From: Nautilus pompilius
Taxonomy: Eukaryota; Mollusca; Cephalopoda; Nautilida; Nautilidae
Reading direction: 5' to 3'
DNA length: 64,000 nucleotides
Assembly (NCBI GenBank): GCA_018389105.1
Contig: JACATO010000335.1
Coordinates: 62,001-126,000 of the forward strand
The notes beneath the pieces were generated by a model, which had not been told where the DNA came from, searched no databases, and saw only the letters and a program-made list of their open reading frames with translations. Both the position numbers and the translations under genes were made by a program. Positions 14,648 through 39,419 of this stretch are shown one piece after another (the first letter of the stretch is position 1; the number at the start of each line of letters is the position of its first letter).

Positions 14648-15696
14648 CAGTAAACCCCCGTCATATCGCGGTTCCGCTATTTCGCGGTTTTTTCTGTAAG
14701 ACCTATTAATTTTCATATCGCGTATGTTTTTGCAATTTCGCGGCATTCCGTAGCATTGTTTATGAGTTTTAAATCTCCGCTGATTGGCTGTTCTGTTTTA
14801 GAAGCATCTCGCTGCTTCGCATCTCGCGGGGAGAGAAGCTGTTCACCTTGATCTGTCTGTTTGCCTTGCTGTTTTATTGATAACCCCAAGGATGCCACCC
14901 AAACGCCCATCATCTAAGGCTTCTGGTGAGCCAAAGAAGAAGAGAAAGTTCTTGATGATTCAGGAGAAAGAAGGTGGAACTTCTTGATATGATAAAGGAA
15001 GGACAGAGTTACGCTGCCATAGCCGCCATTACGGTATGAATGAGTCAACGGTTCGCTACTTCAATAAAGATGAGAAGAATATCAGGGCAACCGCTTCGCT
15101 GTGCATCAATGAAGGTGCAAGACCAGTTGTTTATATCCGCAATAAAAACATTCTCAGGATGGAACCTGCCTCGGCTTTTTGGATCCAAGATTGCCGAAAG
15201 AAAAACATCACTTTGGATGGTAACACCATCAGGACCAAGGCAAAGAAGCTGTACGACACTTTTGCCGTTCAAAGAGGTTCTGAAGAAGGCGTTCCGAAGC
15301 CGAACTGTCAGACAGCGACAATCCTGATGATCCTCAGCCTTCTACATCTTCATCAGGAGGCTTTTCTGCCAGCAAGGGATGGTTTGACCACTTCCAGAAG
15401 CGCTTTCAGTTGAAGAGCATTTCATTGCAAGGTTAAGCTGCATCTGCTGACAAAGAAGCTGCTGCTGCAAGGTGTTTTCCATTGCTCTTGCTTTCTCTCA
15501 ATATCTTTTGTGTGTTTAAATGTGTTTCTATTGTTTTAAAAGTGTGTTTAAAGACCTTAAAATGCATTTTAAAGTACCGTAAAAGTTATAAAAACATACC
15601 TAGGGTGTATTTAAATAGGGTATTTCTACTTCGCGGATTTTCACTTATCGCGGGTGGGTCTGGAACGTAACCCCCGCGATGGAGGAGGGACTACTG
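14648..15696 (+). mobile_element. Tigger/pogo-like DNA transposon, internally deleted
   Basis: The element starts CAGTAAACCCCCG and ends ...GGGACTACTG, giving inverted ends sharing CAGTA, and is flanked by TA on both sides (14646-14647 and 15697-15698), as is normal for Tc1/mariner-pogo insertions. Both arms carry the repeated TCGCGG/CCGCGA motifs typical of Tigger ends. The right arm has the 'acccCCGCGAT...' and 'TTATCGCGGGTGGG' stretches seen in this group. Inside lies a transposase N-terminus that breaks off before any catalytic domain, so the element is non-autonomous. At 1,049 bp it is well under half the usual length of a complete Tigger. Confidence 0.88.
14892..15460 (+). pseudogene. 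Tigger-type transposase N-terminal fragment, frameshifted
   Basis: Translation from the ATG at 14892 begins MPPKRPSSKASGEPKKKRK, the basic start typical of Tigger-1-like proteins. After a frameshift near 14965 the reading continues as VELLDMIKEGQSYAAIA. After a second shift near 15028 it continues as HYGMNESTVRYFNKDEKNIR, the CENP-B/pogo-type helix-turn-helix used for binding the transposon ends. It then runs into a CENPB-type second DNA-binding region containing FWIQDCRKKNITLDG and AKKLYDTFA. A third shift near 15280 leads to a serine-rich linker and GWFDHFQKRFQL, followed by a stop near 15435. The DDE catalytic domain is absent, lost in the internal deletion that defines this element. It cannot make a working transposase. 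Confidence 0.85.
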
Positions 15697-36000: not shown

Positions 36001-36836
36001 CCAAAATCAGCTATTTACTGGTCAGTTAGTGATAGGTCCTGTGGGCACAGAGGTTTATGAGTTCTCATGGTGTTCAAAAGTTTCTGCTGGACAAAGTCAT
36101 CTAACACAAGCACACCTGGTCAAAGGACCCCCCCCCCTGAGATATCAATGAGTCTGGCTGGACACAATGGACCTTCTCTGCAGATAAGAATCATCTTGAT
36201 CAGCATCAAGATGGAAAGAGATGTGTGGTGAATGAATTAGTCATTAATGAGTGTCTGTTGGACACAGCAGTATGTAGAGATAATAAGAGAGAGCATTTAT
36301 TTAAACTATAAAAAGAAAGAGTATTTTTTTTTTTCATTTGTTGAATTATAATTTCTGTGGTCATGTGACTTAAAACTTGTTTGAAGCTGTGAAAGTAATA
36401 AGATATTTCATTATTGAATATGCATGTTGCAGCAATTTTAAGAGTTACATTTATTGTTGAATTAAATACCTTATTACTTTCAAAGCTTCCAAATTCTAAA
36501 TCACACTTGAAAATAAGACTGGATTCAATAAATTACACTGGTCAACAAAATTAAATGTATTATACTCATTATGAATGCAAACCAACTTTTTTAGACTAAT
36601 TTTTCATGCTGATTTCAAAATTTCACTCCATTTGTATGCAGCACGTATCAGTTTTTCAGTAGATACATGCAAATATTTACATATTTGTATATATGAAATC
36701 ATTAACATAATAAATAAGGACATATTATTTTTAGAAGTAAATGAGTTTATTGAGTTAAAAATCATCACTATCATTCTACAAAGAGTGAATACCCCAAAAA
36801 TGGGTCAGACAAACAGACAAAGTTAGAACAACAGAG

Positions 36837-37915
36837 TTAGAAACATTGTGATTTGGATTTCCTGCAGTGTTCCTGATCTGGTTGATCAGGGTAAAGTGTC
36901 CAGCAGTAGTCAGCCAGCATACTGTCATTCCAGAAGCCTTGGTACCCTTTCTCCATAGCACTAATGTCCTGGTGAAATCTTTCACCATGTTCATCAGACA
37001 CTGCTCCAAGGTTATCTGCGAAGAAATCCAGATGGGAGTCCAAGAAGTGAACTTTCAGTGACATGCGACAACCCATTGCTGAGTAACATTTCAGAAGATT
37101 TTTGATGCCATCCTTGTAGTCCATTGCCTTCTTTTTGTCCAAGAAATTCTCACAGATCCAATTGAAAGCATTCCAGGCAGGCAGTTCCAGTGCATCCAGT
37201 GTTGTCTTGAAGTTGACATCTTTGAGTACTTCTCTAATTTGGGGTCCGACAAAGATACCCTCTTTCAACTTCACCTGTGTGATTTTGGGAAACTTTTCTA
37301 CAATATACTCAAACCCTCTGGCATTTCTCTTCCCTAGTGTCTTTACAAACTGTTTCATCAGTCCAAGCTTTATGTGCAAAGGAGGCAATAGGACATTACA
37401 TGGATCTACAAGAGGTGTATTCTTGATGCTAGACAGTCCTGGCTGGTATGATGTTCTTGTCTGCCAGTTTGAGTTTGATTCCGAATAATGTCAGTCAGTT
37501 TCCCGACTATCCCATAGACACAAGAAACAACAGTATTTTGTGAAACCTGACTGCATTCCCATTAACATTCCAATGACTTTTAAATCTCCACATATTTCCA
37601 TGAGTATCTTTCATAGGCAATGGCATGAAGTAAAAGTTCCATATTCTCATGGTCTTTCGGCTCCCTCCATATCATTGGAATGGCAAAAGGCATGGACTTC
37701 TTCCTCTTATTGAACCAGTCATGTAAACCATTTGAGCAAGCTGAGCAGATAAAATGTGGTGCCCATAACTTGTCCTGATCTCCAAGAGGACAGTCAAAGT
37801 ATAGCTTATAAATCTTCTTGATCTCTGGTGTTATTGTACGTTTTTGAGCTTTCACAATAAATTGTCCACAGACATAACAAAAGACATCAGGAGAATTTCT
37901 ACACTGTCTTGACAT
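36837..37915 (-). pseudogene. Transposase-like gene of an uncharacterised animal family, internally deleted and frameshifted
   Basis: The gene reads from an ATG at 37915 down to a stop at 36837. The N-terminal part (about 112 residues, to 37580) has a cysteine-rich zinc-binding-like module, FCYVCG and later FICSACSNGL, and a conserved-looking block ending WREPKDH. The C-terminal part (36837-37388 and just upstream) contains PPLHIKLGLMK, KEGIFVGPQIR and a histidine/acid-rich block, HGERFHQDI, before a short basic tail. From memory, this order matches a recurrent family of 'uncharacterized' proteins in many invertebrate genomes; its location between terminal inverted repeats suggests a transposase. 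Three lesions are visible. A large piece of the middle is missing, with the junction near 37650 between REPKDH and ENMELLL. A single-base loss near 37598 shifts the frame before CGDLKVIGM. An in-frame TGA lies at 37491-37493. An in-frame ATG further upstream at 38017 adds 34 hydrophobic residues not typical of the family, so 37915 is preferred. Confidence 0.75.
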
Positions 37916-37970
37916 TGTTAATACTGTAAAACAAGTAAGGAAATAGATACAAACGGTTATACTTATATTG

Positions 37971-38095
37971 AATTTGAGATGATGAAATATTTCATCAGAC
38001 CAATTATGACTGGACAATTTGAGATGTTGAAATACCTATTTCATCAGACAAAACTTGATTGGTTAATTTAAGATGATGAAATATTGCATCTGAAC
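37971..38095. repeat. Three-unit subterminal tandem repeat with an 18-bp palindrome
   Basis: Three related units begin with AATTTGAGATG or AATTTAAGATG at 37971, 38016 and 38065, so spacing is 45 and 49 bp. Each continues with a GAAAT...CATC(A/T)GA block. The first unit contains the perfect palindrome TGATGAAATATTTCATCA at 37980-37997; the other two have imperfect versions. The array sits between the right inverted repeat and the start of the transposase-like gene. In many DNA transposons, repeated subterminal sites in this position bind the transposase or drive its promoter. That role is inferred here. Confidence 0.75.
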
Positions 38096-38338
38096 TATGC
38101 AGCAATGAATAATGTAGTTTGTTTTAAAGGTATGTTTCCATGATGTAAATGAAATACATGCATACACGTCATTAATTGGAATTTCTATATAATGCATGAG
38201 CTAAAACCAAAAAACTTCTCATCTTGAAAACTGTACGTGATGCCAAAAAACTAATTGTATATTTGAAATCAGCATTAAAAACTACACTAAGTACACCTTG
38301 ACATATGCTTGATGAAAAATACTTGTTGACCAGTGTTA

Positions 38339-39419
38339 TCAGCATATGATCAATTCTAAATATAAGCTTAAATATTTCAAAGGTGGTTTGGACTTTCAAG
38401 GTTTATTCTTAGTGTAACCCAGAATGTTATGGCTGATATGAGGATAATATAGTTGTGTTCCAGAGTTTTTATAAGACATTTATTTAAATCGTCATCTGTA
38501 GATGAGAAATTATGAAATATATAGTGCATTTTAAATTTGAATGTGATTATAAAAAATAACAATAATAATAATAATAATAACAATAATAATAATAATAAGG
38601 GAATATCATACAGATATATTGGCTTCTGTATTTAAGGTTATATTTCAAAAGTGTATCTGTGCACAAGTTTTGACACCAGGGTTTTAAACCAACTTACAAC
38701 TGTCTAACTAGAAATTTGCAGAATATAAAACAGTGTTAACCAAGAAACATGAATATTGATAGACTTGATGTTTGTTTGTGGCAGAGATTCAGATTATTTT
38801 GATTAGAGAGCAGGAGAATTATATACACTGCTCCCATAATTCCATACTGGAGAAAGTAGCTCCCACAACAACTGCTTTGTATGCCACTGTTCTTTTAGGT
38901 ATTTTATCATTGAATCATACATATTAGTAATCCTGTATATAGTTTTATTGTTTGTTTAATCAAGAATAACACACACATTTTTCAAAGTTAATAAGAAGGT
39001 ATACATATTCTGTGTTCGTGTTAGAATCCTGTTCACTATGCAGCTGAGGCATGAAGACCAATTTATATTAAAGATGTAGGTACCTTTGAAAAAGGTCCAG
39101 AGATTTTCTTATGCTAATTAGTAATATACTAATCCAGTTACTATTTATATTAGTTCAGATTTATAGATTCATTAAATAGAATGGTTTCATATGCTTTACA
39201 CATCAGTTTTACCTAGGTAACTTGCTTATTTGTTCCTTTATATTTCTGAGTATTAAAAAACTTTTTAAATATTCTTTAAAATCTTTATTTAATGAGTATG
39301 CATTTGTATAACAGCAGTGGGGAATAAGATTTGAACCAATTTAATTATAGGATCAGTTGTTAGTTATAATTTTTCTTGGAAAACTTTGTATCTTTTTGAG
39401 TCTAACAATCTCCCAGTAG
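38339..39419. other. CpG-poor non-coding DNA between two repeats
   Basis: AT-rich sequence with an AAT microsatellite and few CG dinucleotides. It probably belongs to the same repeat-rich island as its neighbours. Confidence 0.55.
38556..38598. repeat. AAT microsatellite
   Basis: About fourteen AAT units with two AAC interruptions, 220 bp beyond the right end of the 1.8-kb transposon. Confidence 0.95.

Follow-up and report, generated by a model that had tools for sequence, protein, structure and literature searches.

A dead, internally deleted DNA transposon, very probably of the Chapaev3 type, in the genome of Nautilus pompilius

We analysed a stretch of 64,000 nucleotides from Nautilus pompilius (the window; assembly GCA_018389105.1, contig JACATO010000335.1, positions 62,001–126,000 of the forward strand), in which positions 36536–38335 hold an element of 1,800 bp, bounded by perfect 13-bp inverted ends, CACTGGTCAACAA, with TTA on each side. 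This element is very probably a Chapaev3 cut-and-paste DNA transposon, present here as a dead copy with an internal deletion. Its transposase gene lies on the minus strand and is split over two frames, 37580–38035 and 36837–37490. The locus comprises the following features.

36533–36535, no strand: left target-site duplication TTA, preceded by A (empty-site alignment)
36536–38335, minus (gene strand): non-autonomous, internally deleted DNA transposon, very probably Chapaev3-type, 1,800 bp
36536–36548, plus: 13-bp terminal inverted repeat CACTGGTCAACAA, gene 3′ side (exact match)
36607–36619, plus: subterminal repeat TGCTGATTTCAAA, candidate transposase-binding site (arm comparison)
36837–37490, minus: C-terminal transposase frame, 217 residues and a stop, with LH, H(4)H and the Glu of GERFHQ
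37580–37915, minus: N-terminal transposase frame from its first Met, running through the cysteine-rich region and the deletion junction to a stop
37639–37657, minus: 19-mer spanning the internal-deletion junction (147 exact places in the genome)
37971–38090, no strand: subterminal tandem repeats, period 49, 2.6 copies, with palindrome TGATGAAATATTTCATCA at 37980–37997
38262–38274, minus: inverted partner of the TGCTGATTTCAAA subterminal repeat (arm comparison)
38323–38335, minus: 13-bp terminal inverted repeat, gene 5′ side (exact match)
38336–38338, no strand: right target-site duplication TTA, followed by T (empty-site alignment)

A preliminary description of the locus had reported the perfect ends, the flanking TTA triplets and the likeness of the subterminal arms, and these are confirmed. 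Exact copies of CACTGGTCAACAA occur in the window only at the two ends of the element; with up to two mismatches there are six matches against 2.85 expected, a number reached in 11 of 100 shuffles and unremarkable in the window alone. The best match between the arms is 25 of 29 positions, which none of 60 single-base shuffles of one arm equals (top shuffle, 23). Both arms carry TGCTGATTTCAAA, in inverted orientation, and the 49-bp tandem array on the gene 5′ side includes the 18-bp palindrome TGATGAAATATTTCATCA. A DNA transposon with a transposase gene, a cysteine-rich N-terminus and a TTA duplication had also been proposed, and this is supported by what follows.

The ends and the TTA, put forward earlier as marks by which further copies could be found, recur throughout the genome (727.6 Mb, 2,558 contigs). 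With the reversed pattern as control, we found 2,100 exact copies of CACTGGTCAACAA (1,059 + 1,041) against 23 (15 + 8), and 1,722 of the 2,100 (867 + 855) are directly preceded by ATWA (W, A or T), against 0 (0 + 0) in the control; these totals pool several families that carry the same 13-mer. Ends specific to the window family and preceded by ATWA number 528 on the gene 5′ side and 588 on the gene 3′ side (controls, 0).

When 20 end pairs were chosen without regard to protein among 100 CACTGGTCAACAA places listed, identical flanking triplets were found in 10. A larger set of 71 sources includes loci that were detected or selected through protein score or open frame; removing five duplicates and four sources lacking a pair left 62 distinct two-ended elements. 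Identical triplets flank 45 of the 62 (24 TTA, 19 TAA, 1 TAT and 1 ATA; thus 43 of 45 are TWA), and among these 45 the outer bases are A before the left triplet in 45 and T after the right triplet in 45. Gene copies lacking these ends had been named as evidence that would count against the element, and such copies do exist in part: four of the 71 sources have no CACTGGTCAACAA pair at one mismatch or fewer. Diverged relatives also have variant ends, with 5′-CAC..GTG-3′ termini wherever the ends can be read. The definition of the element is not overturned.

Empty sites, which the preliminary description had suggested looking for, were found as well. We joined the flanks of 12 sites and searched the first 1,471 bases, which cover eight sites in full plus 31 bases of a ninth, with 40 of 657 candidates scored. 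Element-free paralogues spanning the junction are present at three of the eight whole sites (window, L009 and L018). The window site has ten such matches with 78–83% identity; five of these were read, and each holds the target triplet in a single copy, TTA in one and TCA in four, with 118–139 of 166–171 aligned bases identical. The one paralogue read for L018 has a single TAT, and the four read for L009 show a less clean junction. The window flanks themselves (36446–36535 and 38339–38428) belong to another, older repeat that hosts the element, as 10 of the 40 scored matches span the joined flanks.

The element had been called complete, which is true of its ends only, as it carries an internal deletion and a broken frame. 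An intact relative has a frame of 1,659 bases, of which the window copy spans 1,070; in the covered part the two are 98.6% identical (1,054 of 1,069). Residues 89–285 (about 197 codons) are gone, including the first catalytic Asp (residue 253), Cys92 and Cys95, and a further frame break lies between 37490 and 37580. The window copy, now dead, derives from a full-length one by internal deletion; judged from its sequence, the loss of one Asp would leave the deleted form incapable of catalysis.

Alignment of the window copy with 20 fetched elements shows that its internal gap is common to L014, L016, L017 and L018. Sorted by gap, 20 of the 62 elements have no gap of 150 or more and are full-length (about 2.29–2.39 kb; 2,294–2,390 bp), 10, the window copy included, have the window's gap to the base, and 1 is off by one; the others comprise 14 with a common gap of another kind, 10 with a larger gap (elements of about 1.3 kb) and 7 with individual gaps. 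Copies within a class differ by a mean of 2.6–3.1%. The 19-mer across the deletion junction occurs at 147 exact places in the genome (control, 0), suggesting that the deleted form was moved by transposase from full-length relatives.

A search for full-length copies with an unbroken gene had been suggested, and some of the 2.29–2.39 kb copies do have open frames. Among 6,209 first-look candidates, 150 matches were scored, and six of these run for at least 563 residues without a stop, and L059 contains an unbroken single frame of 554 residues from the first Met. The window-type deletion is itself in frame, with a predicted product of 357 residues that joins the cysteine-rich part to the C-terminal part and lacks the first Asp, and the deleted copies L014, L048, L053 and L077 keep an open frame of 396–397 residues. 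The KP product of the P element represses transposition in trans. Retention of the 1.8-kb form for a similar repressor activity of its 357-residue product would agree with the in-frame deletion, the kept frames and the 147 junctions. However, L048, L053 and L077 owe their place in the sample to protein score or frame length, and among the window copy and four window-type copies chosen without regard to protein, the frame is kept in only one of five (L014). Two other deletion classes are moreover as common (14 and 10 of 62, against 10 of 62).

Substitution counts bear on the same question. We counted changes confined to a single copy in 21 elements (window and L009–L028), numbered on the natural frame of L059, for which shares of 0.716 nonsynonymous, 0.238 synonymous and 0.046 stop are expected. 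All 21 elements together give 184 nonsynonymous, 64 synonymous and 17 stop changes (n = 265). The 16 deleted copies (121, 35 and 11; n = 167) are near-neutral, with no constraint visible in their decay. The substitutions thus lend no support to a repressor role of the deleted form, a role that is, in our estimate, very unlikely. The five full-length copies (63, 29 and 6; n = 98) and the variants found in at least two copies (30, 15 and 3; n = 48) both lean slightly to the synonymous side, which is slightly suggestive of past constraint on the autonomous form.

To identify relatives in the same genome, we used codon-restricted patterns, which gave 281 and 687 matches (controls, 0), and fetched 17 loci (L079–L095). 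Together with L001–L003 and L005, these form nine further diverged DNA groups beside the window family, the grouping being the same at 75, 80 and 85% identity. Their protein pieces are mostly 40–60% identical to the intact protein. Several of these nine further Chapaev3-type groups carry the same 13-bp end.

The predicted transposase appears to possess the catalytic Asp-Asp-Glu (DDE) residues together with C(2)C, LH and H(4)H motifs, although the window copy itself lacks the first Asp, Cys92 and Cys95. Conservation was counted in an alignment (A5) of 40 rows beside the query, of which several may share one group and many come from broken copies. The second Asp (16 of 16 rows), LH (16 of 16) and the Glu of GERFH (18 of 18) are conserved wherever covered; the first Asp is conserved in 8 of 10 rows, C(2)C in 11 of 12, and the two His of H(4)H in 15 of 18 and 17 of 18. 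We had considered HGERFH, the form found in the window family, as the H(4)H motif and dropped it: its first His is Gln in 7 of 18 stretches (QGERFH). Because this His is not conserved, we assign H(4)H to the H-x4-H of VHFLDSH. The N-terminus is rich in cysteine and histidine.

Profile searches and structure prediction of the intact protein had both been proposed in the preliminary description. No Pfam cut-off was reached. A first model, of the full-length protein, was set aside (mean predicted local distance difference test score, pLDDT, of 47). For the core, the 27 top-ranked structural matches (VIA-align) are all RAG1 or HzTransib, with 9–14% identity and root-mean-square deviations of 5.2–11.4 Å. 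Viral, prokaryotic and phage collections yielded no relative at the sensitivity used, and in 24 further stretches the best Pfam match was zf_UBZ in one stretch (E = 0.003), which we take as chance.

A 3-bp TTA/TAA duplication also occurs in PIF/Harbinger elements. Nevertheless, Pfam domains of the Harbinger and EnSpm types are absent among the matches of four pieces (E ≤ 10) and of the intact protein and 24 stretches (E ≤ 1), and the window family has the C(2)C, LH and H(4)H set together with the RAG1/Transib-like match. Neither this motif set nor such a match is known as a Harbinger feature. We therefore regard a PIF/Harbinger origin as scarcely credible.

A number of observations weigh against the Chapaev3 assignment. 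Neither the intact protein nor the pieces searched, those of the window and four from relatives, reached the cut-off of any Pfam family, and sequence searches of the PDB gave nothing convincing (best E = 0.24). The collections searched yielded no named Chapaev3 protein, and the likeness to Chapaev3 is judged by published descriptions; the cysteine/histidine-rich N-terminus is no more than a candidate Chapa domain. The VIA-align ranking is a re-ranking of the top 1,000 Foldseek chains only, and Foldseek alone (E ≤ 0.001) gave no match for either model, the second having been run against PDB and BFVD. The model used is of moderate confidence (mean pLDDT of 61): the first two Asp alone fall in confident parts, and the score drops below 50 around C(2)C, H(4)H and the Glu. 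Finally, flanking triplets are unlike in 17 of the 62 elements and in 10 of the 20 chosen without regard to protein; the 17 include unrelated flanks, single changes and five cases of TTA versus TAA.

Those five elements (L010, L012, L024, L040 and L057), and five of 43 pairs in an overlapping set, have TTA/TAA flanks on otherwise intact elements, which is commoner than single mutations seem to give. The 43 pairs were made from 75 and 99 rows among the family-specific ends listed, in a set that overlaps the 62 elements; about one in nine (5 of 43) combines a TTA flank with a TAA flank, the outer A and T being intact. For a pattern noticed after the fact, this corresponds to P = 0.009 at a rate of 3% and 7 × 10⁻⁵ at 1%. 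TAA is the reverse complement of TTA. These pairs probably stem from chimeric copies, gene conversion or assembly errors; that Chapaev3 insertion, repair or copy-to-copy end exchange yields chimeras at a high rate, instead of ordinary mutation or assembly error, seems unlikely.

The absence of Pfam matches for the pieces and the intact protein, the lack of a convincing PDB sequence match and the fact that the author of the preliminary description knew the protein only as 'uncharacterized' entries would all be expected if the element represented a new superfamily with no name and no other defined member, a possibility that had been raised in case none was assigned. But missing Pfam coverage is not missing classification, and the ends, the A-TWA-T target, the three diagnostic motifs, the length and the RAG1/Transib-like fold match those of Chapaev3 as published (available parts of PMC4079192, PMC4411706 and PMC12730594). 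A new superfamily is hence highly improbable. Based on these hallmarks, we place the window family in Chapaev3, as a new family within a group that already has a name rather than as the founder of an undescribed superfamily.

We propose that the full-length element (2.29–2.39 kb) encodes a DDE transposase of about 554 residues whose cysteine-rich N-terminus probably binds DNA and whose core has an RNase H fold like that of RAG1 and Transib. By analogy with the family, this enzyme may have bound the subterminal repeats and the 13-bp ends, excised the element and joined it into a 3-bp staggered cut, A^TWA^T; gap repair after joining would then have duplicated TWA. An internal deletion in a full-length copy, which removed the first catalytic Asp, would have given rise to the window form, and this form probably multiplied in trans before its copies decayed.

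In this way, a protein below every Pfam cut-off receives a name and a predicted structure. A Pfam or Dfam profile built from the window family would allow 'uncharacterized' entries to be recognised as RAG1-like transposases and masked. Otherwise the locus is an ordinary transposon fossil. Among the papers listed by a literature search with the first eight letters of CACTGGTCAACAA, those that contained the letters had titles unrelated to transposons, and we do not claim the end to be unpublished. Elsewhere in the window, an AAT microsatellite of 14.7 copies (38555–38598) lies about 220 bp beyond the right end of the element, and an open frame at 14988–15413 (plus strand) has a sequence that may correspond to the helix-turn-helix start of a Tigger/pogo-type transposase.

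To compare the window family with known systems, we consider first Transib and RAG1, whose solved structures resemble its predicted core at the low identities and large deviations given above. RAG1, a recombinase of the immune system, is distantly related to Chapaev3. The Transib duplication is 5 bp and GC-rich, whereas the TWA duplication of the window family is 3 bp.

The wider CMCT group comprises EnSpm, Mirage, Chapaev, Transib and others, with Chapaev3 as a sublineage of Chapaev (PMC12730594, in part). According to the same excerpt, EnSpm, Mirage, Chapaev and Transib all possess C(2)C and H(3-4)H motifs, and CA..TG ends with duplications of 2–5 bp are found in most CMCT lineages, so that EnSpm/CACTA, Mirage and the other Chapaevs are like the window family in ends, short duplications and motifs. 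In contrast, that excerpt describes no A-TWA-T target for them, and no Pfam transposase model matched the window family. The target (outer A and T in 45 of 45, TWA in 43 of 45) and the Garfield-like size instead fit the description of Chapaev3 in the available part of PMC4079192, making another CMC lineage very improbable.

Chapaev3 itself carries the Chapa zinc-finger domain and has been grouped with Transib and RAG1 (PMC4411706, in part), and a further source, in the part available, merely names two of its families in a list (PMC3630058). The fullest account, in the sections of PMC4079192 available to us, covers the Chapaev3 transposons Merrow, Garfield and Conan. It describes 5′-CAC..GTG-3′ ends, the motifs C(2)C, LH and H(4)H, and non-autonomous subfamilies that arose by amplification of internally deleted derivatives; in every member examined there, the duplicated TWA is preceded by A and followed by T. 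Garfield measures 2,289 bp and encodes 556 residues, and shorter members are also tabulated. Compared by description, the Merrow and Garfield proteins are encoded in two exons, whereas the window family has one unbroken frame of 554 residues, like most other Chapaev3 elements (same sections). The window family agrees with this account in its CAC..GTG termini, A-TWA-T duplication, C(2)C, LH and H(4)H motifs, Garfield-like size and amplified internal deletions.
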